A stretch of DNA of 47,468 nt from IMG/VR virus record IMGVR_UViG_3300050821_002254, positions 1-47,468 of that record; one strand, written 5' to 3'. This document shows, one piece after another, positions 1 to 47,365 of this stretch. Made by a program: the position numbers and the translations under genes. Below the pieces are notes generated by a model. It ran no database searches, had not been told where the DNA came from, and worked only from the letters and a program-made list of their open reading frames with translations. The number at the start of each line of letters is the position of its first letter. The first letter of the stretch is position 1. The stretch is from a virus.

Positions 1-280
1 GAGTTCCCTTACCCAATGAGTAACTTCCGTCTGTGTTAAGCGCCACGTCATCCGTAGTGTATAAAGGCGGATTGCCGTCATCGGTATCGCCCTTGCGAAG
101 CGGCTGCTGATATTTCAAATCTAGGAACATATCGGCGCGAATACGGCCCATCTCGCTCAAGCCGATATTCAATGCGCTCAACAGCGTCGTGTCGGGATAA
201 CGGTACGGCGACACGGCGTCCTGCAAGCCAAGCCTTGCTATCGCCATATAGTCGGTAACTGTTCTATATCGTTGCGCCAT
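1..280 (-). CDS. Adaptor-like protein, DUF6682 type (partial)
   Basis: The gene starts at the ATG at 280 and runs off the left edge, so only about 93 residues are visible. The N-terminus (MAQRYRTVTDYMAIARLGLQ, then DAVSPYRYPDTTLLSALNIG and SEMGRIRADMF) resembles the PYRYPD...L..ALN.A..E..R.RPD pattern of DUF6682 proteins, small phage proteins usually encoded just after the major capsid gene. By position it is probably a head-tail adaptor or connector. It is separated from the capsid gene by a hairpin and has a palindrome copy at 283-297, just upstream of its start. The family call is from remembered motif patterns. Confidence 0.7.
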   Translation of the reverse strand, partial: MAQRYRTVTDYMAIARLGLQDAVSPYRYPDTTLLSALNIGLSEMGRIRADMFLDLKYQQPLRKGDTDDGNPPLYTTDDVALNTDGSYSLGKGT

Positions 281-302
281 AATTACCCATCGGATAAGAG
301 CA

Positions 303-2964: not shown

Positions 2965-2986
2965 TTTACCCTTAGGGTAAGAGTCG

Positions 2987-3938: not shown

Positions 3939-4002
3939 GACGGTTACCCTTTGGGTAAAAGAACAGTACGGGAACAATACGGGTCCGAATCAGCAACCTA
4001 CA

Positions 4003-4060: not shown

Positions 4061-4345
4061 TTACCCTGATTTGCCTGATTGCCCCGGCGTCATTTTGTTT
4101 GCGGTCTGCTTGCCAAACATCTTCCCCTTGCCGCCCGACGCGAACTTATCGCTCGATCCAGTCGGCGCGTTGCTCTGCTTGCCGGAAACACCTGACTCGG
4201 CGTCACCCGCGCCGCCTTTGCCGAACATTTTGCCCGAACCGCCCTTAGCAAAGAATCCGGGGTCCTCTGATCGCTTTTCCACTTTACCCATAACAATACC
4301 TCCTAAGTCCGTAAACGGGTCGAACAGTTCTAACTGCTTACCCAT
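4061..4345 (-). CDS. Gly/Lys-rich small protein with KMFGK repeats
   Basis: This 94-residue protein begins MGKQLELFDPFTDLGGIVMG. It has two copies of a GGxGKMFGK motif separated by a Ser/Gly-rich linker. Similar small proteins with GSGKMFGxQ motifs occur near portal and capsid genes of podoviruses (from memory), function unknown. The start codon at 4345 lies inside a palindrome copy (4338-4352), so the first residues MGK come from the repeat. The gap to the promoter at 4031 holds only an A/T-rich stretch. Confidence 0.7.
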   Translation of the reverse strand: MGKQLELFDPFTDLGGIVMGKVEKRSEDPGFFAKGGSGKMFGKGGAGDAESGVSGKQSNAPTGSSDKFASGGKGKMFGKQTANKMTPGQSGKSG

Positions 4346-4377
4346 TAGGTTACTTCTCGTGTGCGTATACGCAAAAG

Positions 4378-4815: not shown

Positions 4816-5218
4816 GAGAAAAGTCCTCTAACTCGATACGCCGTACCGGCACGGTGCTTGGTCTACCAAGCGCCTCCCGCCATGATGCTGGCACTCCGGT
4901 CATGGTCCGGTACACCCACAAATCGATATCATCGAACGCATAATAGCGCTCGCCCCGATTTTCCTCACCAAGATGATTTTTAGCGGGCCAATCGCCAAAG
5001 ATCGTCCACTTCGGGCCGGTGTCGTCGCGACTGAACATTTCAAGCATTTCAGCCCGCGCCATCTTACTCCAGCGACGGCGCATGTACTCGATGGCGTCAT
5101 CGACATGAATGTAACCGGCAGGGATATTCGGCTCCCATTTCGCTATGAGAGGCTTGCGCGCCTGCGCCCTCGCACGACGCTCGGCGTCGGCTTCGCGCTC
5201 TTTTACTGGGTTACCCAT
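4754..5218 (-). CDS. Unknown protein downstream of portal
   Basis: This protein has 154 residues from the ATG at 5218, which lies inside a perfect palindrome (5211-5225) and gives an MGN start. A longer reading from a TTG at 5287 would touch the portal stop. After a basic N-terminus come WEPNIPAGYIHVDDAIEYMR, KMARAEMLEMFSRDD, KWTIFGDWPAKNHLG and DIDLWVYRTMTGVPASWREA. The mix of helical and aromatic segments suggests a folded domain, but I do not recognise it. It belongs to the portal operon. Confidence 0.7.
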   Translation of the reverse strand: MGNPVKEREADAERRARAQARKPLIAKWEPNIPAGYIHVDDAIEYMRRRWSKMARAEMLEMFSRDDTGPKWTIFGDWPAKNHLGEENRGERYYAFDDIDLWVYRTMTGVPASWREALGRPSTVPVRRIELEDFSHAKESSNGRTRIEKDGRRRN

Positions 5219-5283
5219 CGGGTAACCAGAAGGGTTATGTTCTCTTGAGATGCGAGTGTTCGAAGCATCTCCACTCGAATTGC

Positions 5284-7989
5284 TCAATGTGTCGGCCCCC
5301 CTTGGTTAACCAAGTTCGTGCGTGGCTGTCCCCCCTGACCCGGCGCGCCGGGGGGCGCGTTACCCTGCGCCTGCTGGGCGGGACCGGGGGCTTGGGTGTT
5401 CGGAGCGGTCTGCGGCGGCCCGCCCTGACCAGGGGGGACGGGAGGTGCGTTTGGCGCCCCACCAATGGGCGCATGCCCCGGCTGACCCTGCGCGCCAGCG
5501 TTCGCGGCGGCTTGCTGTTGCTGTTTATCCAGATCGGCCTCGCTGGGCACAATGTTCTCGCCCGGCAGGCCGATCTCGGTGGCCACATTACGAAGCACTT
5601 GGGCGCGGCCCTTCGGCCCAATAATCGCCATGTCGATTGGGTTCGCAGTCAATTGAAGGAACTCAAGCTGCCTCGCACGCTGCGTCTCACGCTGCTGAGC
5701 GACTTGCACGCCTAGCACCCGTACCTTCTCTTCGCCAGTCAACAATCCCGTCTGGTCGGTCATCATCACCATATCGAGCAGCGCATTGATGACCGGCTCG
5801 ATCACGTCGATATCGATGTTCGATGCGACGGTTTGTAGTATCTTAGAACTATTTTGCATCAGCATGCTTAGGCCGCTCGCAGTGCGGCCTAAGCCGCCAG
5901 TGGGCGGCGAGCCGGTCATAAATTTCGGAATCGCTGACGCCTCGTCAGCCATACCGCTAAAAGCGGTATATACCGAGAGAAGCTCGTTAGCGTTACTGGC
6001 AGGAGAGAAGAACTCTACGGCTTTCTCGGTGTTATTTCCAAATGGATCACTCTTAACGTGCCATCGCTTCCACGGATACATATCCTCTCCGTTCTCGCCA
6101 TCTCCAAGTCGGTCGTCATTGACGACGACTTGCGGGCCTGAGCTAACCGAGAGGTTATTAACCAGTGCGCGCAGCGTAGCATTAGCCACTGAAGACACGT
6201 CTGCCAGTAAGTCAGGCAGACCATTGCCGCAAGGGTTACCGGGAATTTTCTCGAAGCTGGTGATGTAATATTGATGTCTCTTTCTTGGCGAGGGGATAAG
6301 CTGAACCTTGATAATGTGTCTGCCAATAAGCCAAGCATTGCAATAGTAATCCCTGAGGGGGTCGGGTATCTGCGCCGGGTCCATGCCCAAGTCCAACAGG
6401 AACCGCCCCTGTGCGTTCCCTTGGAACTCCAAACACGCTATTAAGCCAGATTGGTTAAAACGCGGGTCCTCTCGCCCTTCAAGTATTGAACGCTCGGAGT
6501 CGGTTTGGTCCCAGTTATCGACCAGACCGCCCCTGCCGTACTCATCGAGTACGGCCCTTACTTCATCTACGATAAATCCAGGGAGGTCCAAGAGTGTGTT
6601 AATCTCAGCCCGTGTAAGACGACTACGCTGGATGATGTTGGCATCTTCGATGCTCGATACGCCGGGGGTCCAATAAATGTCGAACGGCGATACGCGCTCC
6701 CAGCACAGCACCGGCACGTCCTGCACAATGGGCTTAGCCAACTGGGGTTTTTGTTTTTGGGGGGCGAGGGACGCTTGGCCTGGGGGATAGGCCGCGCCGT
6801 TACCCGCTGGGTTAAACCCTTGGGCAACCCCCCCAGCGCCGACTGCACCTAACCCACCTACGGGAGTAGGCTGAGTGGGTGCCGGGGGCGAAGGCATGGG
6901 GAGATCAGTTTGCGGATCAGTCGGCAGCGCGCCCCCTCCGGGCGCGCCTCCCAACGTAGGCGAAGCGGGAGATGGTGTGTTAGAGTTGGCAGGGAATGGC
7001 GATACGTCCTTCGTCCACTTCACCTGAGTTTTAATTCTGACCGTAGGCCCCTTCAGGCAGGCGTACGGATACATCGGCAGATCGACGAGGAACTCGGCGA
7101 GGGCGGTATAAAACTCGCCCATCGCCAGATATTCTTCCAGCTTGTCTTGCGCAACCTTCGTCTGCTCGACCGCCTTGCGCTTCGCCTGATCGCGAGCGTC
7201 CTCCATCATCAGGTCATAAATATCCCTGACGGTGTTCGGATCAGGCAGAGGTGGAGGCGGGGGAGGGGGAGGAAGCCCTGCGCCTTGAGCATTGGGCATA
7301 GCCCCCGGTATACCGGGGGCGTTCGGAGGAACTGGCATGCCGGGTGGAATAGCGCCCGTCGAAGCCCCCTGAGACGGGCCACTAAAATGCGAGGGTATCG
7401 AAGCATCAATAAACGAAGGAGACTGCCCCTGCTGCGCGCCTATCGCATGAGCGGCGGCTGTTCCTATCTGATGCGCAGCCTGTGCTTGCAACGCTGCAAA
7501 GTGCGCCTGTATCTGACTGGTGACCGTCTCGCCAATGTGCGTCGCTATCGCCTGCACAACCTCGTCAGGAACATCGGGGTCGCTATCTGGCTCAAGTCCC
7601 CAAGGTTTTTCCGTGCCTAGGTACACGTCGCGCAATAACGAAGAGGTGCCTCTGCACTTTTGTGCAATCAGGCGCGCATAGACGTTCGATCCGCCGAAGC
7701 GCTTTATCTCTTGGATGACGTTCACATCATAGACGCCATTGAACGCCCTCAAGCTGGCAAGGAGCTTGTCGCTCCACCCCCTGCCGGGAGTGTCGCGGTG
7801 CCTGCGCATAAGCGTGTATTGATCAGTTACGTACCCAGCCAGCCCTACTGGTGGCTCGCCCACAAACGGGCTCGCGTTTTGTGGCGGCGCATACGACTGC
7901 GCTCTCGCTGCGTCAAGCACCTGCTGTTGCGCTTGCGTATCTCCACGCGAGACGACACGTAGCGCCGGTGCGTTTGGTAGCGCCGCCAT
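5284..7989 (-). CDS. Portal protein
   Basis: This is a 901-residue portal protein of the large podoviral type. Recognisable segments include DKLLASLRAFNGVYD near the N-terminus, SPFDIYWTPGVSSIEDANII, SRLTRAEINTLLDLPGFIVD, YYCNAWLIGRHIIKVQLIPS, GLPDLLADVSSVANATLRAL and FSGMADEASAIPKFMTG. It forms the dodecameric DNA channel at one capsid vertex and binds terminase. Proline/glycine-rich linkers interrupt it near residues 205-260 and 340-415, and a Gln/Pro/Gly-rich tail ends it, making it longer than many portals. A palindrome copy (6800-6814) lies in a linker. The start at 7989 has GGGCAGG directly upstream, and the gene follows a promoter at 8078-8106. Confidence 0.88.
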   Translation of the reverse strand: MAALPNAPALRVVSRGDTQAQQQVLDAARAQSYAPPQNASPFVGEPPVGLAGYVTDQYTLMRRHRDTPGRGWSDKLLASLRAFNGVYDVNVIQEIKRFGGSNVYARLIAQKCRGTSSLLRDVYLGTEKPWGLEPDSDPDVPDEVVQAIATHIGETVTSQIQAHFAALQAQAAHQIGTAAAHAIGAQQGQSPSFIDASIPSHFSGPSQGASTGAIPPGMPVPPNAPGIPGAMPNAQGAGLPPPPPPPPLPDPNTVRDIYDLMMEDARDQAKRKAVEQTKVAQDKLEEYLAMGEFYTALAEFLVDLPMYPYACLKGPTVRIKTQVKWTKDVSPFPANSNTPSPASPTLGGAPGGGALPTDPQTDLPMPSPPAPTQPTPVGGLGAVGAGGVAQGFNPAGNGAAYPPGQASLAPQKQKPQLAKPIVQDVPVLCWERVSPFDIYWTPGVSSIEDANIIQRSRLTRAEINTLLDLPGFIVDEVRAVLDEYGRGGLVDNWDQTDSERSILEGREDPRFNQSGLIACLEFQGNAQGRFLLDLGMDPAQIPDPLRDYYCNAWLIGRHIIKVQLIPSPRKRHQYYITSFEKIPGNPCGNGLPDLLADVSSVANATLRALVNNLSVSSGPQVVVNDDRLGDGENGEDMYPWKRWHVKSDPFGNNTEKAVEFFSPASNANELLSVYTAFSGMADEASAIPKFMTGSPPTGGLGRTASGLSMLMQNSSKILQTVASNIDIDVIEPVINALLDMVMMTDQTGLLTGEEKVRVLGVQVAQQRETQRARQLEFLQLTANPIDMAIIGPKGRAQVLRNVATEIGLPGENIVPSEADLDKQQQQAAANAGAQGQPGHAPIGGAPNAPPVPPGQGGPPQTAPNTQAPGPAQQAQGNAPPGAPGQGGQPRTNLVNQGGPTH

Positions 7990-8056
7990 CCTGCCCTTGC
8001 CCGCCTGCCACGGACTTACCCATCGGGTAACTAAAAAGTCGTAGTCACGATCACAA

Positions 8057-10705: not shown

Positions 10706-10894
10706 TCATTCGTAAGAAGGGTTACCCGTGGGGTAAGTCGGCAGGAGAAAAGATGGGCCGAGCGCGCTGAAAGACCCTGCACGGCGGGGACAGCATCCGA
10801 TCCGTACAGGGTCCATTCTGCGCAGTGGGCTTGCATTGCCGTGTGTCTCGTTTACATTGAAACACTCGACAACCTTGGCAGGGAGCTTACCCAC
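10706..10894 (-). CDS. Possible leader ORF before large terminase
   Basis: This is a 62-residue frame starting with a GTG at 10894 inside a palindrome (10887-10902), giving the same MGK opening as several solid genes. The sequence (VVECFNVNETHGN, then RIGCCPRRAGSFSALG) is not clearly protein-like. The GTG lies about where transcription from the promoter at 10902-10930 should start, so translation would be leaderless. A second palindrome (10722-10736) lies near its end. It may be only a regulatory leader. Confidence 0.35.
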   Translation of the reverse strand: MGKLPAKVVECFNVNETHGNASPLRRMDPVRIGCCPRRAGSFSALGPSFLLPTYPTGNPSYE

Positions 10895-10902
10895 GGGGGT
10901 TA
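10887..10902. promoter_or_regulatory. Palindrome at the terminase transcription start (operator candidate)
   Basis: TTACCC-ACGG-GGGTTA spans the predicted +1 and touches the -10 box of the leftward terminase promoter. A protein bound here would block initiation, the best placement in the window for an operator role. Confidence 0.6.
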
Positions 10903-11087: not shown

Positions 11088-11116
11088 TTGACCCCTGGTT
11101 GCCCATTGGGTAATGT
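11088..11116 (+). promoter_or_regulatory. Weak rightward promoter before the structured RNA
   Basis: TTGACC (11088-11093), a 17-nt spacer and TAATGT (11111-11116). The palindrome copy at 11099-11113 covers the spacer and -10. The -10 box is weak, so this is tentative, but it points into the folded region. Confidence 0.4.
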
Positions 11117-11563: not shown

Positions 11564-11596
11564 CCGTTTCGCGCTTGCAACTAACCCAAAGGGTAA
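11564..11596 (+). repeat. 33-bp direct repeat, copy 1 (gene leader)
   Basis: An identical 33-bp sequence occurs here and at 11852-11884: CCGTTTCGCGCTTGCAAC followed by a palindrome copy. Each copy sits immediately before the start codon of a small rightward gene, so it is a duplicated leader with ribosome site, possibly with a promoter element. Confidence 0.9.
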
Positions 11597-11851: not shown

Positions 11852-11884
11852 CCGTTTCGCGCTTGCAACTAACCCAAAGGGTAA
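11852..11884 (+). repeat. 33-bp direct repeat, copy 2 (gene leader)
   Basis: This is the second exact copy of the leader at 11564-11596, ending 3 nt before the ATG at 11888. Confidence 0.9.
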
Positions 11885-12530: not shown

Positions 12531-12684
12531 ACCCATTGATCTTACTTGACTTTCACCATTTAATCTTCGTCAAAACCGTAAGTATTTACAACCACTAGTT
12601 GACTGTCAACGGCCTATCTATGGTTGTATCCTTCGGAAAAACCTTTCTCTGCCGTTTCGACGGCGTAACCCAAGAGGTAATGAT

Positions 12685-13438: not shown

Positions 13439-13459
13439 CTCTAACCCAAAGGGTAACTC

Positions 13460-13681
13460 ATGAGAAGCCGACGCGAGCAGCGCATTGATCGCGCCTTGTC
13501 ATCTGTGCTTGCCGATATTGACAATCGGCATGAGGAAGCAGCAGCCATGCTCGACAACCCATCATGGCGCGTGCTTGATGAGTTGAGTATCGAGCATAAC
13601 GAGGCGCGCATTGCTGCGTATGCTCGCGCCAAACGACTACATGCAATCTGGCAAGCGCGCATTGAGCGCGAGGCAGACTAA
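13460..13681 (+). CDS. Small helical protein, unknown
   Basis: This 73-residue highly charged helical protein (RSRREQRIDRALSSVLADID, EHNEARIAAYARAKRLHAIW) starts 3 nt after a perfect palindrome (13442-13456), which supplies AAAGGG. Likely coiled coil; function unknown. Confidence 0.65.
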   Translation: MRSRREQRIDRALSSVLADIDNRHEEAAAMLDNPSWRVLDELSIEHNEARIAAYARAKRLHAIWQARIEREAD

Positions 13682-13696
13682 CCCAAGGGGTAACTC

Positions 13697-14087: not shown

Positions 14088-15215
14088 TTGGTGAAACGAC
14101 CCAAGCTCGACAACGTTGGCGAGGAAAATGAAGTCGATGCGGCTGACGCCGTAGATGCTTCGTTCACGCCCGAGACTAACCCTGAGGGTAATAACTCCGA
14201 GGCGGACATTGCCGATCAAGAGGCGGCGGGCGTGCCTGACAAGCCGACGCGTCCCGCTGCTACTCCCCATGCCCCTTCGCAAAATAGTCGGGTGGCCGAC
14301 CAAAGCAACAACCCGCGCACTGTGTCGCCGAAGACACAATACAACAACCTGAAAAACAAAGTGCTTGGGTTAGGCAAGATCTATGGCGGCGGCAAGACCA
14401 GCATGATTGCGCTGGCTGAAGCGGTTGTCGAGGCTGCGCAGGACGGCGCGATCACGCCCGAGCAGACTTCCGAAGTGTACGACAAGTTCAAAGAGGGCGT
14501 CACCAAGGCGTCGTCGTACGAGGACGCGGGCGAAGTGTCCGACGAAGCGGCGATGGGCGCGGCCCCGGCCAAGTCCTTGGAGCAGCAGCTGTCGAAGCTG
14601 CGCCAGTTCGTCTACCTTGGCAACAAGTACGAGAGTGACGCGCTCGACTTGGTGCGCAAGGCGCGCAACATGCATATCGACTTGCTGCGTGTCGCCAACG
14701 GCAGCGCCGACGCCAAGAAGGGCGTCAAGCCCGGTTCGACTTACGCCATTCTCGTGGACGTAGCTCGCGCCCAACTCAAGAAGCAGAAGGACGCCGTCGA
14801 AGCGGGCAAGAAGTCGGGCGTCAAGCACACTGGCTTGGCTCCAGTCTTGACCGATGACGAACTGCGCGGCTTGATGACGCAGGAAGTCAAGGAGCCGGTG
14901 GATAAGACCGGCGAGGACTACCTGCTCGACACCCTAGTCAAGGCGAAGGCTACGTACAAGGGCAGCGACAAGCGCAACGCCATCACTAGTGAGGAACTCG
15001 CTAACGCTATCGAGTGGCTGCGGACGGCGCTCGCTAAGGTTGCGCCCGATCTGCTGAGCCAGCACGACGCCGAGGAACTGCAAGCCCAACAGGCGAAGGC
15101 GCAAGCCGCCGCCGACAAGGCCGAGGCTGAGCGCGTCAAGGCTGAGAAGGCTGCGCAACCCAAGCCGACCAAGGCTGAACGGCAAGCCGCAGTGCACGCT
15201 GCGCCTGCCGCATAA
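14088..15215 (+). CDS. Highly charged coiled-coil protein, unknown
   Basis: This 375-residue protein starts at TTG 14088 (or GTG 14091) with CAGGAG 8-11 nt upstream. The N-terminal 90 residues are acidic and disordered. The middle has YNNLKNKVLGLGKIYGGGKT and SLEQQLSKLRQFVYLGNKYE. The C-terminus is a long Ala/Lys/Glu coiled coil. The GGGKT string is not a convincing P-loop. It is the first gene behind the promoter at 14007 and is closed by a strong terminator, so it forms its own transcription unit. Function unknown; an abundant early DNA-binding or structural role is only a guess. Confidence 0.7.
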   Translation: MVKRPKLDNVGEENEVDAADAVDASFTPETNPEGNNSEADIADQEAAGVPDKPTRPAATPHAPSQNSRVADQSNNPRTVSPKTQYNNLKNKVLGLGKIYGGGKTSMIALAEAVVEAAQDGAITPEQTSEVYDKFKEGVTKASSYEDAGEVSDEAAMGAAPAKSLEQQLSKLRQFVYLGNKYESDALDLVRKARNMHIDLLRVANGSADAKKGVKPGSTYAILVDVARAQLKKQKDAVEAGKKSGVKHTGLAPVLTDDELRGLMTQEVKEPVDKTGEDYLLDTLVKAKATYKGSDKRNAITSEELANAIEWLRTALAKVAPDLLSQHDAEELQAQQAKAQAAADKAEAERVKAEKAAQPKPTKAERQAAVHAAPAA

Positions 15216-15239
15216 CCTAACCCACTAGGTAACTTATAA

Positions 15240-15995: not shown

Positions 15996-16046
15996 ATCAA
16001 CTTCACCACGTTACCCGTTGGGTAACACAACCTTAGAAAGACCGAC

Positions 16047-29717: not shown

Positions 29718-29746
29718 CCCAACGGGTAACTAGAAAGGACAGCATC

Positions 29747-30994: not shown

Positions 30995-31016
30995 GTTACC
31001 CATGGGGTAATAACAA

Positions 31017-34309: not shown

Positions 34310-34620
34310 AGCTAGCTGTCATGTTGGGAGTAGTCTATGCGGCCACGTCGATGGGTGCGGAGGCTCGATGCTATAGCCGATGGTATTATCCCTACCCTCA
34401 ACACTGTGTTGCGGCTCATGGGGTCTACGCCAGAACGACCAGACCCCGTGCGGCTGTACTACCTATTGTATATCGTCCTGTTACTAGCAATCGCAGTGAC
34501 ATGGGAGATATACCACTACCGGACATGAGCGCAAACTGGGGCGGAACGTTAGACACTGAGTTAGAGCTAGCTCTCCAACGGCAAAAAGCCATCCGCCAAC
34601 TTACCCAACCGGGTAACTAG
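34306..34620 (+). CDS. Exported small protein
   Basis: This 104-residue protein starts at a GTG at 34306. Signal peptide MKLAVMLGVVYAATSMGAEA is followed by RCYSRWYYPYPQHC, a Cys/Tyr-rich segment seen in small exported phage proteins, and a tail with DIPLPDMSANWGGTLDTELE. The end (LTQPGN) is encoded by a palindrome. It would be periplasmic. A second frame inside it also looks coding. Confidence 0.6.
   Translation: MKLAVMLGVVYAATSMGAEARCYSRWYYPYPQHCVAAHGVYARTTRPRAAVLPIVYRPVTSNRSDMGDIPLPDMSANWGGTLDTELELALQRQKAIRQLTQPGN
34337..34528 (+). CDS. Nested out-of-frame membrane protein, tentative
   Basis: This 63-residue frame lies wholly inside the exported-protein gene in another frame. Its ATG has GGGAG 7 nt upstream. 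It has a basic N-terminus (MRPRRWVRRLDAIADGIIPT), a helix and one C-terminal transmembrane segment (LYYLLYIVLLLAIAVTWEIY). The good ribosome site and sensible topology favour real coding, in an arrangement like nested Rz/Rz1 genes though without their motifs. Confidence 0.45.
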   Translation: MRPRRWVRRLDAIADGIIPTLNTVLRLMGSTPERPDPVRLYYLLYIVLLLAIAVTWEIYHYRT

Positions 34621-36183: not shown

Positions 36184-36338
36184 TTCTTCTTACCCTTGGG
36201 GTTACTTTTACCCCCACCCGCTCGACGCTGGTTATCGAGCGCGATGGCGACCGCTTGTTTCTGCGGCCTGCCGCTGTCCTTAAGTTCGCGGATGTTCTTG
36301 CCAACCGCTTTGTCACTTCCAGACTTGATCAACGGCAT
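36180..36338 (-). CDS. DUF6496-like small basic protein
   Basis: This is a 52-residue protein, MPLIKSGSDKAVGKNIRELK then DSGRPQKQAVAIALDNQRRA and a Lys-rich tail. The MPL.K..S.KA...NI......GRPQKQAVAIAL pattern is a very common small phage protein (DUF6496 as I recall). Its role is unknown, although it is often encoded near virion genes. The tail NPKGKKK is encoded in a palindrome (36190). Confidence 0.8.
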   Translation of the reverse strand: MPLIKSGSDKAVGKNIRELKDSGRPQKQAVAIALDNQRRAGGGKSNPKGKKK

Positions 36339-36919: not shown

Positions 36920-36951
36920 TGCTTCACCTCGTTTAATTACCCATGGGGTAA

Positions 36952-37861: not shown

Positions 37862-39948
37862 GTTACTCGCTCCTTACCCTGTGGGTTAGTCATCCCGTGC
37901 GCTGGAAGCACCTCTGTCGAGTCCTCGTCCAGCGAAACCCCTACGGCGGTCATGTACGCACGAAGGCGATTGTAGAGAGCGAGTTGACCAGCGTCGCCAA
38001 GCGAAGCGCCGATGAAGGCCGCAGCAAATTGCTGCCTAGAAGCACCAACTATTCCTGCACCAAGTCTAAAATGATTTGAAGCAAGCGTCTGCGACGCATC
38101 CGCCATATCGCCCCAAGGATTTGTACCGTTGTAATAAAGATTGACCGCAGATGACGATGGTCGGTCGCCCACATACAAACCGGCGGATGCTGGGGTCAAC
38201 GTCCCCGGAGTTGTTGGGCTATTAACGCGGGCATAGAAATTATTATCGGTAAAATGAGGATAAAGATGTGACGTTCCGCCAGTAATCCCATTACCGAATA
38301 CGACAGCTGATTCCAGCCAATCAAAATTGGTCCACACACCAAAACTAGCCGAGTTTTGAGTAAAATTCGGACTTGAAACTGTCGGGTCAAAACCTGTGTC
38401 AAAATAACTAGCAGCGGTATTAAACCCATCAAATCCACGATATTGAGTGAATATTATAGTTCCAGTGCGAGGGCCTGACCTTCCCAGCGCGCCAACTTGT
38501 GTTAACAGATAGCTCGTCCCAATCAAATTCAGCAGCGCATCTGCTTCGTTCTGCTGCGCCAGCACATACAAGCAATCCAGCAACGGCCACACGCCGTCCG
38601 CCACCAGCCCGTCTATGAGGGCGATAATATTGGCGGCGTTGCCGCCCGCGTTGCCGCCAGTGGTGCGAGCGAGATAAGCCGCCGCTTCGGGAGACATTGC
38701 AGGCGCATCCCACGCCAAGAACCCAGCCCGCGGCGTCATCGCGAACGGCGTCGCGCCGAAATTGACGGTCATCGAGCCGCCGCCAGCGCCGCTCGTAAAT
38801 CCAGCGTCGATGAAATACGGCCCAGATATAGCAGGGTAAGCATTGCCAAAGTTAACACTTGGCCACCACACACCTCCCCGCGTGATGTTATTCATCCAAA
38901 TCTGCCCAGCATCGAAATCAATCTCCATAGCATAGCTATCGCCGTTGTTTATCGGTATATTGGCGTTTCCGGTGTATGGAGAATTCGCTACATAACCAAC
39001 AAGTTGTGGGCCAGCAAAATATCGCCACCCCAAACTATTGCCGACGGCATCAAGCCCTAAACCACTGCTAAGAACAAACGCATCATTAGCAAATCCAAAA
39101 GTCGAAAAACCGTCGAAAACGCCCTGAACATTGTTAAATTCTACATGCCACTTGCCGGTTGAATGGGAAGTGTTCGAGCGAACATTGCCGATGGCGTTGC
39201 CAACTCGCGTAACAGTCAGATTATTGTTGCTCAGCGTCACGTTGGAGAGGTCGGAAGGGTTGAGAATGGTCGTTGTCTCTGTCGTCACCGGCCCGCCGTC
39301 CCACGCCTGAAAACCGGGAGGGGGAAGATATTTCTGGCTGGCGGGAGTGGATTGAAGGGTCCAGACTTCGCTAAGGTTGTAAGGACTCAACGCCGGAAAC
39401 AACGCTCCTACTGTCGCTTGATCAAAGGATATGATCGGCAGCAATCCCGTGGCTGGATCATTTCCGTCCTGCCAAGCGCCCTTAAAAGCGATCCATATGC
39501 TTCCAGCATCAAAGTCAATCGCCAATGCGCAAACATCCCCTGGCGTACACCACGAAGTTTGAGCATAATTTAATGTAAAACCAGCCGACATTCGGTTTGG
39601 GAACCCAATTCCAGCCGAATAATTTGAAGTTCCTAGGGCCACGCTAACAGGATTAAAAGTTGAGTTTGCTACGCCACAACTATTGTTACCGGAAGTAGAG
39701 GTAGCGAGAAACTCGACATAATATTTTCCTGTCGTATGACTGATCGTTCCTCGTATCGAATTAAATCCAACAACAGCGGGCGAGGTGAACGTCAGCCCGC
39801 CATTGGAGAGCATCAAGCCGGTGGCGGCGGCGTCGGCGGCAGACCAGACCGAACCCGTAGGACCACCGCTAGAACTCAGCACAACCGCGCCATTGGCGTC
39901 GATCAGAATCGCGCCTTCCAACCCGTCAGCGGTGCGTGCAATACTCAT
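37858..39948 (-). CDS. Tail fibre / receptor-binding protein with SPRY-like domains
   Basis: This 696-residue protein opens with a short N-terminal module (IARTADGLEGAILIDANGAV) that is duplicated in the gene upstream and probably attaches it to the tail. Two similar beta-sandwich repeats follow, SHTTGKYYVEFLATSTSGNN and TSHSTGKWHVEFNNVQGVFD, each with later LAIDFDAGSIWIAFKG or AMEIDFDAGQIWMNN, matching SPRY/concanavalin-like domains. A third domain starts near TIIFTQYRGFDGF. Likely host-surface binding. No palindrome copy lies inside, suggesting a different origin. Confidence 0.75.
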   Translation of the reverse strand: MSIARTADGLEGAILIDANGAVVLSSSGGPTGSVWSAADAAATGLMLSNGGLTFTSPAVVGFNSIRGTISHTTGKYYVEFLATSTSGNNSCGVANSTFNPVSVALGTSNYSAGIGFPNRMSAGFTLNYAQTSWCTPGDVCALAIDFDAGSIWIAFKGAWQDGNDPATGLLPIISFDQATVGALFPALSPYNLSEVWTLQSTPASQKYLPPPGFQAWDGGPVTTETTTILNPSDLSNVTLSNNNLTVTRVGNAIGNVRSNTSHSTGKWHVEFNNVQGVFDGFSTFGFANDAFVLSSGLGLDAVGNSLGWRYFAGPQLVGYVANSPYTGNANIPINNGDSYAMEIDFDAGQIWMNNITRGGVWWPSVNFGNAYPAISGPYFIDAGFTSGAGGGSMTVNFGATPFAMTPRAGFLAWDAPAMSPEAAAYLARTTGGNAGGNAANIIALIDGLVADGVWPLLDCLYVLAQQNEADALLNLIGTSYLLTQVGALGRSGPRTGTIIFTQYRGFDGFNTAASYFDTGFDPTVSSPNFTQNSASFGVWTNFDWLESAVVFGNGITGGTSHLYPHFTDNNFYARVNSPTTPGTLTPASAGLYVGDRPSSSAVNLYYNGTNPWGDMADASQTLASNHFRLGAGIVGASRQQFAAAFIGASLGDAGQLALYNRLRAYMTAVGVSLDEDSTEVLPAHGMTNPQGKERVT

Positions 39949-40200: not shown

Positions 40201-40224
40201 TCCATTCGCTCCTTACCCTTAGGG

Positions 40225-40503
40225 TTATTTATCCTCTGGGACGGAATAACCCTTCTGGCCCTTGCGCCAACTCCTGTTCTTTTTTATACTCTCTACACGG
40301 GAATTTGTCAAGCTATTACTTCCCCCACCCGCTAATGGAACAATATGCGCCACGTCGCCGCTTGGCGCATGGCCTAGCTTCGCCGCCGTGTGGGCGCGCA
40401 GAAGGTTCCGTTCCTCGCGATGCCTAATCTGCGCAGGGCTGTCCTCGTAGCGGTCCTCTTTCTTGTAGTCGCGCCGAGATGGAGGATTCTTACTGGTAGA
40501 CAC
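40225..40503 (-). CDS. HNH-like protein
   Basis: This 92-residue protein has a basic N-terminus (RRDYKKEDRYEDSPAQIRHR), then GDVAHIVPLAGGGSNSLTNS and RVESIKKNRSWRKG. The DxxHIxPLxxGGSNxxxN...N pattern is that of compact HNH domains in phages. The first His of a classical HNH pair appears as A-H, so activity is uncertain. It overlaps the end of the giant gene by 14 nt. Confidence 0.65.
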   Translation of the reverse strand: MSTSKNPPSRRDYKKEDRYEDSPAQIRHREERNLLRAHTAAKLGHAPSGDVAHIVPLAGGGSNSLTNSRVESIKKNRSWRKGQKGYSVPEDK

Positions 40504-43500
40504 TGTAATCTTCCTCCATCTGCTTTTGCTTCACTGTTGGCGGCTTGCCGACTTTGGTTTGCTGCTTAGCTTTTAAGGTCTGCGCCACCGTAATCTTGTT
40601 GTGCGGGTGCGCCCGGTTCCACGGGCCAATCAACGCCGGGTTGCTCGCCGCCTTTTGTGTCTCTGCCTTCTTATCGGCGGCTTCTTCCTTCACCAGCCCC
40701 GTCTCTTTGTTGTAGAGCGCTTCCCGTGTCGGCGTGCCGCCTATGGCGCGGATGAATGTCTCGTACGGATCGAGCGGCTTCATGTCGGGGTTGCCGTGCG
40801 CCCCCGCCTTGCCCTCTTGGTTCTCGTTATACGCCTTGGCTATATCAGAGAACAGCCGAATCGGTATGACGTTGGGTATGCCGTGCTTATAGTCACCCGC
40901 AAGAATGTCGCTGGCCCCTGTCCATTCATCCTTGACGTAGCCCACCCCAGCCCCGCCAACCATTTCAAGCAAAAAGTCTGTAGGTGACTTTAATGCTTGG
41001 TTCTTAACCATCAGGTCGCTCAACCCAATACGGGAGCCAGCGTCCAGCCCCGCCGCGCCGAGTATGCCATCCATCACCAGACTGCCGCCAAACTTACCCA
41101 ATGAGTTAGTTGTCGAGCGCCTAGCTTGATCCTCGTAGTCCTGCCACGATCCAGTTAGCCCGAGAGCATGAGACATTTCAACTGCCAGCCGGATAGGCTC
41201 AGGCACGCCCGCCGCCGCGCCAGCCAGCGCCGCCGTGCTGCCCATCGTGGACAGCAGCGATATGATGGCGGCTTGCTTGACCTCCCGCGTCTCACCCTTG
41301 ACCGCGAGATAGGCGTTCTTAGCCAGCAGCCGGTAAGTCATCATCGGGACAGAGCGAAACTGCATCGCCGCCCTCACCATCGGGTTCTTCATGAACGACG
41401 CCCGGTTCGCCGCAGAATAGATGCCCTGCGTCTGGCTCACCGTGTCTTTCGCGTAGCGTACGGCTTGCGCATGGTGGGCGACGTTCTCAGCTAACGTGTT
41501 CGCTTTGCCCATCTTCGCCCGCTCGGCGCGGTACGCCGTCATATACGCCCCGACACGGTTCACCGAGTCCACCGCATGGCTCATTTCATTGCCGATATCC
41601 TGTAGGTACTGCGCGCCGCGATCCAGCTTACCCGTACGGTCGAAGCTCCTGCGGTAGTCAGTGACGATAGATCCCAGATGCGGCGTCTCCCGGCCTACGT
41701 CGAACGCCCGTAGCTCGTCAGCCGTCGCGCCACTCTTAGCGAGGTTGTTGCGGATGCTGGTCATCAAGTCGGTCGGCATGTGATCGCCGCCCTTAAGCGC
41801 GCTGAACATCCCCTTGACGCCCCGGCCCAGCGTGCCGCCCGCACCCATGTCGCTCATCGTCTTGAGGTACGTAGCGTGCGCGTTGGCGAACCCATGCCGC
41901 CCTGCGATATGCGGGATCGACGTGATAAAGGGCCGCGTCAGGTCGAGCGCATAGTGAATAGGAGCCATCATATCCTTGACATACGCCAGCGTGGTAAGCT
42001 TCTGCAACCACGGGTTCATCTGCCCGGTGAACCCTTCCTTGCCGAAGTTCTGCGACCGATCCTCCATCTCTTTTACCAGCATCGTGCGCTTGGGCGTGTC
42101 CGCGTCCTGCACGTTGCGTGCATGCTCGCGCATCTCACCGAACGCAGCGTCGATATCCGGCAGGGTCTTGGAGCGGGCGCGGCTTCTCGCGCTGTTGGCG
42201 AGGTAGTCGTGCATCGCCAGCACGGGGTCAGCGTTCGCGCCGCGCACCCGATTCGACTTGAGCAGCCCCCGGTTCATCCGGTTGCCCTTCATCAGGCCCA
42301 GCGCCGCCTGCTCGTTGGCCTCCTTGAGCGCAGCCTTCTCGTCCTTACCCAAGTGGGTAAGCGCGTCGATGGCATGCTCCTGCGCTCGCAGCGTGCCAGA
42401 GTGCAGCCCATAGTCGATGCTGTCGTTGCGTTCGCGCAGCATGGGTTGCGTGATGCTGTCGGGGTTGATCCCTTTTATCCCTTTAAGCTTCTCGCTTAGT
42501 AGTCTACCCTCGTGAACGCTGTTCACTGCCGATGAGTGCTTGTTCTGCACCGTGACCTTGTACTGCTCGCCCTGCCCCGGTTTTTGTTCAGTGCTGGTCG
42601 GCTCGCTCACCTTCTGCATGTCGGACGGCAGGGAGCGTTCGACAAGCTTCTGCCGGTAGTCGTAGGCGTCCTGCTTGCTGCCGAACGTAACTTCGTTGTC
42701 CTTCACTGACAACGCGTTGGGCGCGTCTGGTAGCTCATGCTCAGCGTTGACCACCCAGCCGCCCTTACGCGTGCCGGGGAAGTGCGGCCCCTCCTGCTTG
42801 AGCATGCCCCTAAGATCACGAACCATCTTGATGTGCGGGTCAGCCCCATAATTCTCAGCCTCGTCTTCTTCCAGCTTCTCGCCGTTGATCACCTTGGTCA
42901 CCGCGTTGTAGCGCTCCACCCGCTTAATGTCAGCCGGGGTGCGGTTCGCCTCGGACGTCTTGAGCGCTTCCTGTAGCTTTTCGTCGCGGTCAAAGTTTGT
43001 CTGAAGCTTGTCGGTGAACGTCTCGATGTTCGCTTTGACGCTGCGCTGCCCTTCCTCCATGATCGTGTCGCGCATATCCTTGAACAGCGCTTGTTCCTCG
43101 GGCGTCGAATGTTCGAACTCGTCGGATAGGCGCGGATGCGCCATGATCGCTTCGTGATGCTCAGCGTTCGAGTCAATGCCGAACGTAGGTTCACCAGTTT
43201 TCTTGTCCACCTTGCCCTTGATATAGTCGTTCAGCCCTACGCCCAGCGGCTCGTCGGGATGCACGTTGAAGTCATGCGCCTCGGACAACAGGCTGACCAC
43301 CCGTTCTAACCCATCAGGGTTAGTTCGCTTCATCGCCGCCATGCGCTGCATCAGATCGTCATGCTCCTTGAGCATGTTCTGGATCATGTGGCCCTGTTTT
43401 AATAACCCCTCCTGGGCGCGGCGCATCGGGTTGGCTTCGTCCTTGGGTCCGAACATATGCTCGTTGTCGATACGCAGCGCGTCGGTGAACGAGCCTTTCA

Positions 43501-46500
43501 GCTTGGCGTTGAAGAATTTCTCGCCAGAACCGGACTTGAGCGCTTGCGCCGCCTCGCTGTTCCAGAACGATGGCGGCTTCTGCACCGCGTCCTGCGCATC
43601 GCTCGCCATGTCCTCGGCTTGCTTCTCAGGCGGGTCCATCTTCTGCCACTTAAGCTTCGGCAAGGAGACTGGCACAGCCTCGGCGCGTGCGGCGCGGTCG
43701 GCGCGTGCCGCCGCCTCCATCGCCATGCCGGGATCACGGCTCCACATTGTTTTTTCTGTGATCGCCATCGCGCCTTCTATCGCGCTCACGTCGCGTGGCT
43801 CTAGTCCCAGCGCTCGCTGGATAATGTGCAGCACGCCGTTCCACATGGTCGCCTTGCGCCACTTCGGTATGCCGATAGCCTGCGCTAGGTCGTCACTAAT
43901 TTTGACCCCTCTAAGCAGGCGCTGAACGTCGGGGTTGGTCATCATGCCGGTGAGAAATTCTTCCGGGTCGCTGAGAGCGTACTGAACCTTGGCGCGTGAT
44001 TGAATGTCCATCAACGGCATGTTGGCGCGAACGTCGTTGCGCAAGCGCTCCATCAGGTCACGAAGCTCAGGCGACTTCTCCAACGCCTTCGCGGTCGCGG
44101 CGTGAAACACTTCATGCAGCGCCGTGTCATGCTTAAGGTAATCATTGTTGATATAGATTTTATCCGACACAGGATCATAAAAGCCATAGGCGGGGCCACC
44201 CAGCTTGGTCATGTCGTCGTGGCTGATGTAATGCACCTCGGTGTCGCCAGCCAGATGATTCAACTTATCGATCAGGCGATCATTCATCTGCCGCTCGGCA
44301 GGGGAGTATTTCTTCGGGTCGTAATGCTCGTCTATGGCGTCCTTCGCATTGGACTGCCGGATGGAGGTTATCTCCTGTGGCTCGCCATCCTCGTCGGCCT
44401 GCATGATCTTCTTGCCGGGAGCGCCTTCCTGACCTTCCTCCATCTCCTGTCGTTTAATGCTGCGGTTCTTGCGAACTTCCTGCTTGAACCCCATCGCCGC
44501 TTTGGGCGCAGGGGCTTCCTCTTTACGTAGGGCTTCGCTCTCGGCGCGGGCGGCGGCGATCTTGCGCTCCCGTTCCTCACGGGCGGCGGTGAATGCGTCG
44601 GGCGCTTTCTCATGTTCCTCGCCGCCCCCAGCTAACTCTGTGGGTAACTCGGTCGCGGCTTCCTCATGCGCAGTCTCGCCTTCGATCACATGCTCGCCGG
44701 TTTCCTCTGTTTTTTCCAGTTGGTCCTGCTTGCCGTGTTCGACCGCGCCCTCTGGCGAGCCTAGCCCCAACGCCCCCTCGTTGCGGCGTACAGCAAAAGC
44801 TTCGTCCGCCTTGCCGTGATCGATCATATGCTCGCGGTCGAGGAAGCGGGCGTAGGCGTCCCACTTAGGAGCTTTCTTAGCGGTCAAATCAGCCGCTTCG
44901 CGCAGCTTCAACATAGAAGCGTTGTGGGGGTGCCCTTCGGGAAACGCGTCAGGGATTTTAATCCCAGCCGCCTTGGCGGCGTCAACCATCGCCTTCGCCC
45001 GGTCATAGATAATTGTGGGGCGCTTGACGTTATCCAATGAGGGGGGCGCAGGGTGAGCGTCGGTGATGCGCTTCGCTGCGATGTTGTCGGCGGCGACCTT
45101 GGCTTGATCGACTGCGCTCGTATGCTGGCGGGTCGTTCTTACGCCCGCCTCTTTCGCCGCAGCTTCCTGCTTGGCGGCTTCTCTGGCTCGCAATCTTTCT
45201 GCTACCGTCTGCGCCTGTAGCGCGTCCTGCGCCGCTGCTGCGTCACGCGCCCTTACGCTCTCCGGGTCTAGCCCCTCCAACACCCGACCCTTACCCAATG
45301 GGTTAACAACCTGTGGTTGTACAACCGGTTCTTGTGCAACCTCTCCTTGTGTACGAGCAAGGCGATCCGCGACCACGTCCTCAGGGCGCTCGACGCTGAC
45401 TACGTTGCCGGGGGTCTTGGCGGCTTCCAGGCTGGCGACTTGTTCGGGAGCGGTCGCCGTGGTCCCCGCCGCCGCCTTAGCCTCCGTGCCGTCTGGCGTG
45501 CGCTCAGTGACCACGGCTTCCGGCTCTCCTGCCGAAGCTCGGGCGACAGCCTCGTCCTTAGGCACAGGACCAAGCTGTAGGATTTCGTTTAGTCTATTAT
45601 TGTCATCGGCGAACTTGACTTTGGCCGCGCTCAGCTTGCTCGGGCCGCTGCGGTCATACTGAATCGTGCGGCCATCCGCCAATTCCTGTTGACCGTAGCG
45701 ACTTTTCTTAGTAAGCTCAATGGGTTGCACGTCTTTGGGATAGACCATCGCCTCCCTTGGGTTGCCCGGATCGAGCATCGCGGCGTGCTGCTGGCGCAAA
45801 GTCTCGTCAGGCTCGCGGGCAATCGCCGCCGTATCCTCGCGAGGCGGGGCAGGGATAGGGGCAGGACCAGCGTCAGCAACTTTTTGGGGTCCCTCTACCA
45901 CCCCGGTTGTATTGGCCTGTCCTTGCCCTTCCCTGCTTTCCACAGGTTGTATCGGTACAACCTCTGGTTGTATTACTTCTTTTTGAGGTACTGCTGCTGC
46001 GCTAGCTTGCGGTGGAGCCTTAACTTTATCCTTTTCAGACTCAAGGTTTGGCCGCTGGCTGTTCTGATCTTTAATCTGACTCCCTCGATCTCGATATATG
46101 TCGGCTTGTCCTGTATTTCCCTCGGCATTACTTACCCCTTGGGTAACTGGGGCCGCGCCTAGCGCCGCACTCTGTGCGGGATCAACTTTCGGCGGCGCGG
46201 GGGGAGGCCCTGCTGCGGCTGCGTTAGCGGGCGTATCGGCAGGAGCAGTCGTCGTGTTGGGCGTGCTGCCGTCCGTACGCTTCGACTCAGTGGCGCGCTG
46301 GGTTGGCGTCTGTCTGGGAACAGTCGCCGCACCGCCTGTTTGAGTGCGGTCGGCGGGCGTTCTGGCGACAGTCGGGTCAGGCCCTTTGCCGTGCCACGCG
46401 CCTCCTACGCCTGCCATGCCAGCGCCAAACAACCCCTGCCCTAGACCGGCGGAGAGAATATCCTCGCTGGTCGCTTCTTGGCCTACGCCTTCCTCGACTT

Positions 46501-47365
46501 CAGCATGCTTGGAGACGTACTCCTGGCCTGCTCCCGGCAGGCCCTGCTCGACTAAGCCACGGCCCGCACCGGCGATAGCTGACGGGACGCGGCCAGTTAC
46601 CCGACGGGTAAGCAGGCTACCCCCGGTAAGCGCTGCATTCTCAGCTTCGCCCACGCCCACCTTGAGAGCGCCAGTGAGTTCAGCGCCGCCCGCGCCGCCC
46701 GTAATCGCGCCCAGTATAGCGCTTGGCGCGCCCACGCTCAGCGCCATCGACTGACCAAGCTTGTCTTTCGCTTGTTGCTCGGTCAACCCAGAACGCCTAT
46801 CAGCCGCGTATTGCGGGTTGGACTGCATCAAGTCCATATCGTTGGCTTGGTCGATGGCGGCTTTATTGCTGCTGATTGCGCTGCCGCCTAGGACAGTCGC
46901 GCCCATTGCGCCGCTGGCCACCCAGCCGACGCCGGGGATGAACGACGGAGCGATCATCACCACTGTAGGCGCGGCTTGTTCCGCCAGCCAAACTGAGGGT
47001 GTCTGCTCCGCGCCGGGGGTCATCGCCTCTTGCGCTTCCTCGCCCGCCTTGCGCTGCGCCGCCGCTTCCTCGGTCTGCCCGGTGACTTCGGCAAGCGGCG
47101 CAGCCACGCCAGTATGCAACCCGTACGACAGACCATATCCCACGTCAGCCATAGTCGAGCTTGGCTTGGGCGTGTAGGGCGTCGTGCCAGACCAGTTGAA
47201 CGCTTCCAACGGCTTTAACGCCGGGTCGTCTTCTTGCGGCGAAGGCGGGGCGCTTACCCGTGGGGTAACTGACGACGATAACGGCGGCAGCGCGCCGCTG
47301 TCCGTGTTGAAAGCGGTTAGCGGCTGTAGCGCCGGATCGTCGGTTTGAGTATCTAACGCCATCAT
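40490..47365 (-). CDS. 2291-residue polyvalent virion protein with zincin motif
   Basis: One of the largest phage proteins. The N-terminus has two DDPALxPLxAFN repeats (residues 9-20 and 46-57), then a hydrophobic Gly/Ala segment (PTVVMIAPSFIPGVGWVASG), a long disordered Pro/Glu/Ala region and charged helices. Near residues 1083-1087 is HEVFH in DTALHEVFHAATAKAL, a zincin-type HExxH. Downstream come long helical regions with ANRASFMKNPMVRAAMQFRS, like large polyvalent protein-associated domains. Such proteins are packaged and injected with DNA or line the ejection channel. The start overlaps the upstream stop. Seven palindromes lie inside the gene. Confidence 0.8.
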   Translation of the reverse strand: MMALDTQTDDPALQPLTAFNTDSGALPPLSSSVTPRVSAPPSPQEDDPALKPLEAFNWSGTTPYTPKPSSTMADVGYGLSYGLHTGVAAPLAEVTGQTEEAAAQRKAGEEAQEAMTPGAEQTPSVWLAEQAAPTVVMIAPSFIPGVGWVASGAMGATVLGGSAISSNKAAIDQANDMDLMQSNPQYAADRRSGLTEQQAKDKLGQSMALSVGAPSAILGAITGGAGGAELTGALKVGVGEAENAALTGGSLLTRRVTGRVPSAIAGAGRGLVEQGLPGAGQEYVSKHAEVEEGVGQEATSEDILSAGLGQGLFGAGMAGVGGAWHGKGPDPTVARTPADRTQTGGAATVPRQTPTQRATESKRTDGSTPNTTTAPADTPANAAAAGPPPAPPKVDPAQSAALGAAPVTQGVSNAEGNTGQADIYRDRGSQIKDQNSQRPNLESEKDKVKAPPQASAAAVPQKEVIQPEVVPIQPVESREGQGQANTTGVVEGPQKVADAGPAPIPAPPREDTAAIAREPDETLRQQHAAMLDPGNPREAMVYPKDVQPIELTKKSRYGQQELADGRTIQYDRSGPSKLSAAKVKFADDNNRLNEILQLGPVPKDEAVARASAGEPEAVVTERTPDGTEAKAAAGTTATAPEQVASLEAAKTPGNVVSVERPEDVVADRLARTQGEVAQEPVVQPQVVNPLGKGRVLEGLDPESVRARDAAAAQDALQAQTVAERLRAREAAKQEAAAKEAGVRTTRQHTSAVDQAKVAADNIAAKRITDAHPAPPSLDNVKRPTIIYDRAKAMVDAAKAAGIKIPDAFPEGHPHNASMLKLREAADLTAKKAPKWDAYARFLDREHMIDHGKADEAFAVRRNEGALGLGSPEGAVEHGKQDQLEKTEETGEHVIEGETAHEEAATELPTELAGGGEEHEKAPDAFTAAREERERKIAAARAESEALRKEEAPAPKAAMGFKQEVRKNRSIKRQEMEEGQEGAPGKKIMQADEDGEPQEITSIRQSNAKDAIDEHYDPKKYSPAERQMNDRLIDKLNHLAGDTEVHYISHDDMTKLGGPAYGFYDPVSDKIYINNDYLKHDTALHEVFHAATAKALEKSPELRDLMERLRNDVRANMPLMDIQSRAKVQYALSDPEEFLTGMMTNPDVQRLLRGVKISDDLAQAIGIPKWRKATMWNGVLHIIQRALGLEPRDVSAIEGAMAITEKTMWSRDPGMAMEAAARADRAARAEAVPVSLPKLKWQKMDPPEKQAEDMASDAQDAVQKPPSFWNSEAAQALKSGSGEKFFNAKLKGSFTDALRIDNEHMFGPKDEANPMRRAQEGLLKQGHMIQNMLKEHDDLMQRMAAMKRTNPDGLERVVSLLSEAHDFNVHPDEPLGVGLNDYIKGKVDKKTGEPTFGIDSNAEHHEAIMAHPRLSDEFEHSTPEEQALFKDMRDTIMEEGQRSVKANIETFTDKLQTNFDRDEKLQEALKTSEANRTPADIKRVERYNAVTKVINGEKLEEDEAENYGADPHIKMVRDLRGMLKQEGPHFPGTRKGGWVVNAEHELPDAPNALSVKDNEVTFGSKQDAYDYRQKLVERSLPSDMQKVSEPTSTEQKPGQGEQYKVTVQNKHSSAVNSVHEGRLLSEKLKGIKGINPDSITQPMLRERNDSIDYGLHSGTLRAQEHAIDALTHLGKDEKAALKEANEQAALGLMKGNRMNRGLLKSNRVRGANADPVLAMHDYLANSARSRARSKTLPDIDAAFGEMREHARNVQDADTPKRTMLVKEMEDRSQNFGKEGFTGQMNPWLQKLTTLAYVKDMMAPIHYALDLTRPFITSIPHIAGRHGFANAHATYLKTMSDMGAGGTLGRGVKGMFSALKGGDHMPTDLMTSIRNNLAKSGATADELRAFDVGRETPHLGSIVTDYRRSFDRTGKLDRGAQYLQDIGNEMSHAVDSVNRVGAYMTAYRAERAKMGKANTLAENVAHHAQAVRYAKDTVSQTQGIYSAANRASFMKNPMVRAAMQFRSVPMMTYRLLAKNAYLAVKGETREVKQAAIISLLSTMGSTAALAGAAAGVPEPIRLAVEMSHALGLTGSWQDYEDQARRSTTNSLGKFGGSLVMDGILGAAGLDAGSRIGLSDLMVKNQALKSPTDFLLEMVGGAGVGYVKDEWTGASDILAGDYKHGIPNVIPIRLFSDIAKAYNENQEGKAGAHGNPDMKPLDPYETFIRAIGGTPTREALYNKETGLVKEEAADKKAETQKAASNPALIGPWNRAHPHNKITVAQTLKAKQQTKVGKPPTVKQKQMEEDYSVYQ

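Follow-up and report, generated by a model that had tools for sequence, protein, structure and literature searches.

A genome-wide array of short palindromes in a tailed phage and its diverged counterparts in related phages

Introduction

Dispersed palindromes in phage genomes have previously been described in one cluster of mycobacteriophages, Cluster O, where a 17-bp repeat of unexplained function (TGTTCGG-N3-CCGAACA) is present in phage Corndog as 34 intergenic and intragenic copies with conserved positions and a variable centre of three nucleotides (nt; PMC4351075). The authors of that study argued for a dimeric binding protein and against promoter regulation (PMC4351075). Here, a comparable array is described in the IMG/VR virus record IMGVR_UViG_3300050821_002254, which was analysed over its entire 47,468 bp (hereafter the window). 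The palindrome TWACCC-N3/4-GGGTWA is dispersed along this genome, and diverged palindromes are found throughout a large, mostly uncultivated lineage of related phages. In the open-access literature, no paper on such arrays in the related Rhizobium phages or in the window lineage was found.

The window array shares with the Cluster O repeats a short symmetric dyad in tens of copies, located within and between genes at conserved positions. The sequences differ, and so do the carriers: Cluster O phages are actinobacteriophages, whereas the nearest cultured kin of the window are Rhizobium phages, which are unrelated to them. Furthermore, Cluster O has one sequence per group, whereas the window lineage displays a radiation of variants, and the Cluster O repeats were reported without a tight link to start codons, whereas sites of the window lineage are enriched there. 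Membership of the Cluster O class fails on sequence and host; it is the closest described parallel all the same. A query with the Corndog repeat pair matched 31 Mycobacterium and 2 Gordonia phage records in the phage collection, and the latter indicate that the Corndog array may extend past mycobacteriophages.

Two other systems, the start-associated sequences (SAS) of Cluster K (GGGATAGGAGCCC; PMC3203893) and the stoperators of Cluster A, were named as analogues in a first-pass annotation of the window. Analogues they are, but the window sites belong to neither class, and the closer Cluster O repeats were missed. SAS are likewise present in many copies, most of them directly upstream of start codons, but are asymmetric and in one orientation, whereas the window sites are symmetric and have mismatches in both arms. 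Stoperators occur in temperate phages, are asymmetric and 13 bp long, and are recognised by a repressor in monomeric form (PMC6550527, PMC9283540). This immunity repressor stops transcript elongation in the lysogenic state. Like the present array they form sets of tens of short dispersed sites with lineage-diverging specificity, served by one phage protein (a putative one here), and the divergence with kept positions seen here resembles that of stoperators and repressors in Cluster A (PMC6550527). However, stoperators are oriented with transcription, whereas the window site is a 15/16-bp dyad. Both systems therefore fail as the same class on symmetry.

Results

The palindrome array in the window

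The gene content of the window is that of a tailed phage, with a major head protein, portal/adaptor, terminase and PolA-type polymerase, in addition to a RecB-like exonuclease, an SNF2 helicase and a DUF927 primase-helicase. Exact pattern searches found 47 copies of the palindrome, 36 with an N3 and 11 with an N4 spacer, and dinucleotide shuffles of the window contained none of either form. When one mismatch was allowed and overlapping registers were merged, 67 sites were obtained (51 N3 and 16 N4; Table 1), a mean density of approximately one per 0.7 kb, whereas a control with the letter-reversed pattern gave a single match. The 68 copies counted by eye in the first-pass annotation were essentially right, its density argument against chance agrees with the shuffles, and copies stand at both ends of the array where it placed them, the first with one mismatch and the last exact. 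Its description of sites at junctions and inside genes also holds, as 35 lie within called genes and the other 32 are in intergenic DNA or extend across a gene end (gene calls were uncurated hexamer-scored open reading frames made for this analysis).

One longer sequence, GCGCTTGCAACTAACCCAAAGGGTAA, is found twice in the window (11572-11600 and 11860-11888, 288 bp apart). The pair comprises the palindrome with the same left flank and is perhaps a duplication or recombination scar.

Diverged palindromes in related phages

Exact copies of the window motif were dense in the relatives G005 (32 N3 copies), G007 (17), G024, G025 and G006, the last of which is near-identical to the window. Four relatives with a primase identity of approximately 55% had no exact copy, and the cultured Rhizobium phage RHph_TM3_14A had none either. 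The first-pass annotation had named relatives that share the genes but lack the sites as evidence that would count against its claim, and such relatives thus seemed at first to exist, but this apparent lack arose because the search used the exact window sequence. A de novo dyad search, which counts all 5-base inverted repeats, revealed that the four relatives carry TTACTC-N4-GAGTAA instead, and RHph_TM3_14A has about 52 copies of GTTACCT-N4-AGGTAAC (one mismatch allowed). As a positive control, the method recovered TGTTCGG-N3-CCGAACA de novo in Catdawg (38 exact copies).

Sampling was extended via the helicase and polymerase loci and then to whole contigs. Approximately 30 related phages each have their own dispersed palindrome, in 12-83 copies and mostly a variation on TNAC-NN-N3..5. 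More than a dozen diverged site sequences occur across the lineage, including variants with spacers of N4 (TCACTA-N4, TTACTT-N4, TAACTA-N4, TAACTG-N4 and GTTACCG-N4), N3 (TTACCG-N3, in full TTACCG-N3-CGGTAA, TTACGG-N3, TTACTG-N3, TTGACA-N3 and TTAACA-N3) and other lengths (TTACGC-N5 and CTTATAT-N2). The log-likelihood ratio of the best dyad was 26-309 for most relatives, while Markov-2 simulations reach 16. The weaker cases are supported by counts that allow a single mismatch. One of them is G004, whose exact copies give a ratio of 16 and which has 37 sites of the degenerate form TWACYC-N-GRGTWA; several partial loci hold 3-6 exact copies each. Two partial loci (L226 and L144) seemed motif-negative, but their whole contigs were positive. 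The shuffles and the arrays of the relatives rule out a chance origin or a motif private to this phage. The first-pass observation is confirmed, but that annotation missed a whole lineage with arrays of changing specificity.

The sole close cultured relatives are the Rhizobium phages RHph_TM3_14A, TM27A, TM27B and TM29, which are near-identical to one another, and by its portal the window is distantly related to the HMO-2011/Roseobacter CRP phages. No such array was found in the portal or polymerase/helicase relatives KPP25, Rollin, phiA008, Xp15, Effie, phiM6, RHph_N3_19 and CRP-207. Five loci of bacterial genomes with a related helicase likewise held none, and thus give no prophage or host evidence. 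Among the portal relatives, Vibrio phage CHOED (L353-L356) has separate dispersed inverted repeats (20 copies of AAATC-N11-GATTT and 10 of AAGGT-N2-ACCTT), and HMO-2011 (L347-L349) has five copies of GTCCG-N4-CGGAC.

Selection on the DNA of in-gene sites

Comparison of in-gene sites between the window and its relatives revealed that 16 of 18 occupy the same codon in G005 (0.12 expected) and 16 of 24 in G025 (0.17 expected), the latter at 71% nucleotide identity. Even in G003, which has a different palindrome, 4 of 24 were at the same codon (0.06 expected). Identity at third codon positions within the arms was 0.89 against a background of 0.62 for G005 (p 2e-6) and 0.71 against 0.50 for G025 (p 5e-5), whereas in the spacers it was only 0.44 and 0.41, respectively. 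In a survival control, random 12-base arms were retained at a rate of 0.39 (G005) and 0.18 (G025), compared with 13 of 16 and 12 of 21 sites. Since silent positions are conserved in the arms, unlike the spacers, and site positions are kept, selection acts on the DNA.

Placement relative to genes

Placement statistics were compiled for 956 sites in 28 records. About half of the sites lie in genes, 458 are intergenic (119 expected) and 271 fall in the 30 nt that precede a start (39 expected), with palindrome ends clustering 1-7 nt ahead of start codons. The first three bases of 78 sites (TAA) also terminate the gene upstream. Stop-palindrome-start cassettes often cover the ribosome-binding site at operon junctions, and TAACCC-N3-GGGTAA-N3-ATG cassettes occur in the window. 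The enrichment at junctions and starts is largely due to the shortness of the gaps, yet gaps longer than 120 nt retain an approximately threefold preference for starts (19 vs 5.9). Around one third of co-directional gaps of at least 15 nt contain a site. In 24 of 25 genomes the sites were spaced more regularly than a uniform distribution predicts, and ten genomes reached significance at 0.05 on their own. The transcriptionally 5' arm holds more mismatches than the other arm (291 vs 179), mostly at the outer two positions, plausibly because the outer bases serve as a stop codon.

Candidate binding proteins

Two proteins encoded in the window are candidate binders (Table 1). For the first, an AF2 model (predicted local distance difference test score 83.5) places helices in winged-helix order, and matches in the PDB comprise the TrmB-like ST1889, AbfR2, TrmBL2, MarR and ArsR winged helices. 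As all of these have E values of 0.018 or worse, a winged-helix fold is only suggested. Homologues were found in 25 records, all of which have arrays, including two that had seemed negative on partial loci, and in none of twelve motif-poor records. In the RHph_TM3_14A record, the homologue lies at 34654-34968 and protein X, the second candidate, at 18372-19100. Protein X had no family match, and a PDB fold search was empty. Among 33 motif-bearing records, protein X is encoded by 29, including all of the large ones, and the other four are fragments. Of 28 comparison records, only G059 has it, together with an array of which four copies were already visible in its partial locus. Seven new contigs fetched via protein X, which are short (8-21 kb), all have palindromic dyads. 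For some of these the evidence is 3-6 exact copies plus degenerate matches, and one (L324) shows the further variant TCACTC-N3. No homologue of protein X was found in Catdawg.

Other proteins were considered and rejected. Phages that share a motif differ in the recognition helix of an XRE/Cro-like helix-turn-helix (HTH) protein, and this protein is missing from most motif-bearing lineages. A 159-aa (amino acid) protein occurs solely in the five lineages that lack the winged-helix protein; it is not itself a winged helix (hhalign gave nothing), and from its sequence looks like a GIY-YIG nuclease.

Table 1. Palindrome sites and candidate binder genes of the window. Rows marked exact come from the exact pattern search and all others from the one-mismatch search.
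Feature	Position	Strand	Description
Whole array	9..47268		67 copies (≤1 mismatch) of TWACCC-N3/4-GGGTWA, 47 exact
Site	9..23		N3, 1 mismatch
Site	283..297		N3, 1 mismatch
Site	2966..2980		N3, exact
Site	3944..3958		N3, exact
Site	4338..4352		N3, 1 mismatch
Site	5211..5225		N3, exact
Site	5223..5237		N3, 1 mismatch; overlaps site 5211..5225
Site	6800..6814		N3, exact
Site	8016..8030		N3, exact
Site	10722..10736		N3, exact
Site	10887..10902		N4, exact
Site	11099..11113		N3, 1 mismatch
Site	11582..11596		N3, exact
Site	11870..11884		N3, exact
Site	12666..12680		N3, 1 mismatch
Site	13442..13456		N3, exact; ATG at 13460 starts 3 nt after
Site	13679..13693		N3, exact; first 3 bases are TAA stop of upstream gene
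Site	14177..14191		N3, exact; within protein X gene
Site	15218..15232		N3, 1 mismatch
Site	15527..15541		N3, exact
Site	15696..15711		N4, 1 mismatch
Site	16011..16025		N3, exact
Site	16121..16135		N3, 1 mismatch
Site	16333..16348		N4, exact; in gene
Site	16909..16924		N4, exact; in gene
Site	17244..17258		N3, exact; spans start codon
Site	17650..17664		N3, exact; stop/start junction
Site	17847..17861		N3, exact
Site	18612..18626		N3, exact; in gene
Site	19324..19338		N3, 1 mismatch; stop/start junction
Site	19481..19495		N3, exact; stop/start junction
Site	19793..19807		N3, exact
Site	20119..20133		N3, 1 mismatch
Site	20592..20606		N3, exact; before start
Site	20921..20935		N3, exact; in gene
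Site	21468..21482		N3, exact; stop/start junction preceding XRE gene
Site	22554..22569		N4, 1 mismatch
Site	22605..22619		N3, exact
Site	22958..22972		N3, 1 mismatch; precedes DNA polymerase gene
Site	23614..23629		N4, 1 mismatch; in gene
Site	24194..24209		N4, exact; in gene
Site	24496..24510		N3, exact; in gene
Site	25300..25314		N3, exact; at end of winged-helix candidate gene, holds its stop codon
Site	25781..25796		N4, 1 mismatch; before start
Site	26305..26319		N3, exact; in gene
Site	26741..26756		N4, exact; in gene
Site	27538..27553		N4, exact
Site	28297..28312		N4, exact; in gene
Site	28970..28984		N3, 1 mismatch; junction
Site	29715..29729		N3, exact; junction
Site	30996..31010		N3, exact
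Site	31773..31788		N4, exact; in gene
Site	32882..32897		N4, 1 mismatch; in gene
Site	33317..33331		N3, 1 mismatch; in gene
Site	34601..34616		N4, exact
Site	36190..36204		N3, exact
Site	36937..36951		N3, exact
Site	37874..37888		N3, exact
Site	40213..40227		N3, exact
Site	41094..41108		N3, 1 mismatch; in gene
Site	42345..42360		N4, exact; in gene
Site	43307..43322		N4, exact; in gene
Site	44633..44647		N3, 1 mismatch; in gene
Site	45291..45305		N3, exact; in gene
Site	46132..46146		N3, exact; in gene
Site	46597..46611		N3, exact; in gene
Site	47254..47268		N3, exact; in gene
Candidate binder 1	25003..25314	+	Putative winged-helix DNA-binding protein, 103 aa; directly downstream of DNA polymerase gene
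Candidate binder or partner 2	14091..15215	+	Protein X, 374 aa, helical; candidate from its presence pattern among motif-bearing records
XRE/Cro-like HTH protein	21488..21823	+	Preceded by exact palindrome; less likely binder

Discussion

The array is a set of DNA sites that is conserved yet diversifies rapidly, and a phage protein probably binds it. A fairly probable explanation is a genome-wide operator array for a phage-encoded dimer that acts as a roadblock/silencer or as a genome organiser; that the binder is dimeric is very likely, and that the phage encodes it is likely. One symmetric (dimeric) DNA-binding protein, most likely the phage's own, would bind the palindromes genome-wide. Site sequence and protein specificity would have drifted between lineages, mainly at the inner half-site positions and in spacer length, with the outer TNAC core mostly retained, while sites would be retained at operon junctions, often over the ribosome-binding site, and in genes by silent codon choice. 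If the protein is abundant, bound dimers would block transcription (stoperator-like silencing), might keep out a superinfecting phage that shares their specificity, and/or might organise the intracellular phage genome. Roadblock silencing may be the main function, a suggestion made tentatively, and genome organisation could conceivably hold that role instead.

Several observations weigh against an operator array served by a phage protein. No integrase or lysogeny/immunity repressor was recognised among the scanned window genes, which makes classical immunity doubtful; moreover, the symmetry of the palindromes sets them apart from known stoperators, which have an asymmetric sequence and a fixed orientation. 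The winged-helix protein was undetectable in five whole motif-bearing records (G044, G045, G053, G054 and G055). With phylogeny accounted for, motif distance showed no significant correlation with recognition-helix distance (partial Mantel 0.03, p 0.37), and the correlation of motif with protein X distance (partial r 0.22) was equalled by several unrelated proteins, so that covariation singles out neither candidate. Three records without protein X (G070, G058 and G076) have low-copy arrays of other sequences, and absence of X is therefore compatible with palindromes. Both binder associations may simply mark the clade. The winged-helix protein is put forward as the binder with reserve and protein X as another possibility; some other or a host-encoded protein seems rather unlikely.

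Genome organisation without gene-by-gene regulation is somewhat unlikely as the whole account. Here a phage nucleoid-like protein would coat, loop or mark the DNA for protection, a replication compartment or packaging, and junctions would be enriched only as places free of coding constraint. The occurrence of sites in early and late regions and within structural genes, their even spacing and a start preference of only about threefold in large gaps are consistent with this, as is the match of the winged-helix candidate to the archaeal chromatin protein TrmBL2. However, that match is weak (E 0.3), and pure organisation needs neither the residual start preference nor the frequent overlap with ribosome-binding sites.

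It is less likely again that the palindrome is a start-associated element, lying over the ribosome-binding site to control downstream translation or transcription (cf. Cluster K SAS), with the in-gene copies secondary. The excess of sites upstream of starts, the clustering of their ends and the cassettes in the window argue for such a role. However, nearly all SAS are start-linked, whereas here the start-proximal sites are a minority and about half lie in genes, where those examined are conserved in position under silent-site selection, and there is no orientation besides the use of the outer TAA as a stop codon.

Recruitment of a host-encoded regulator or nucleoid protein, with lineages differing as their hosts differ, is improbable. 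It would accommodate related but different motifs in related phages, and the phage binder is only a candidate so far, but the arrays coincide with particular phage genes (winged helix and X), and the tested rhizobial-host portal relatives phiM6 and RHph_N3_19 have no array.

The RNA hairpin that the first-pass annotation had offered beside a symmetric protein site, that is, stem-loops acting in transcripts on stability, processing or translation, is very improbable: inverted repeats with 3-5-nt loops placed at junctions would suit it, but single-mismatch transitions keep G-U pairing about as often as they break it (99 vs 112, p 0.41), degenerate W positions pair as expected under independence (90 observed vs 91.9), no strand or wobble signature of a hairpin was seen, and an Rfam search of the window matched no family. 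The lack of a wobble or pairing signal and of an Rfam match fits a protein-DNA site, so the protein half of that earlier proposal is the one supported.

In an operator array for a phage-encoded dimer, the lineage-specific sites and a co-evolving binder might together constitute a specificity code by which related phages are silenced or excluded or the chromosome is organised. Such a system would parallel stoperators but with symmetric sites and in phages other than actinobacteriophages, and the Corndog repeats would fall in the same general class; this is offered as a tentative proposal. The earlier suggestion of an undescribed regulon or of a system that organises the chromosome is a plausible hypothesis. 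If the arrays do set specificity groups, exclusion and regulation between phages could be read from their sites as a code. Since the four cultured Rhizobium phages belong to the lineage, the function of the array can be tested directly on an isolate grown in a laboratory host.

Other observations

The palindromes of the records without protein X are unrelated in sequence: AATTGCC-N3, TTCCTCGTACGAGGAA and TCCCCGTACGGGGA, in G076 (L373-L375), G058 (L314/L365-L366) and G070 (L309-L310). The 'putative integrase' annotated in RHph_TM3_14A (MN988472.1 42239-45322; L001 30610-33693) is a homologue of the DUF927 primase-helicase of the window, so the annotation is probably wrong.

Amid the head genes of the window, a 73-aa protein (3475-3696, minus strand) matches the Pfam family Tad2-like (Thoeris anti-defence 2) at 4e-25. 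A 241-aa protein (34714-35439, plus strand) has a C-terminal PEP-CTERM sorting motif (Pfam 4.7e-6, above cut-off), which is unusual for a phage, and its gene adjoins a Peptidase M15 endolysin-like gene (35740-36183). Finally, an ATPase (phrog_1297) followed by a VWA/metallopeptidase protein (DUF2201) is encoded at 16047-19338 (plus strand), a pair retained in most motif-bearing relatives.

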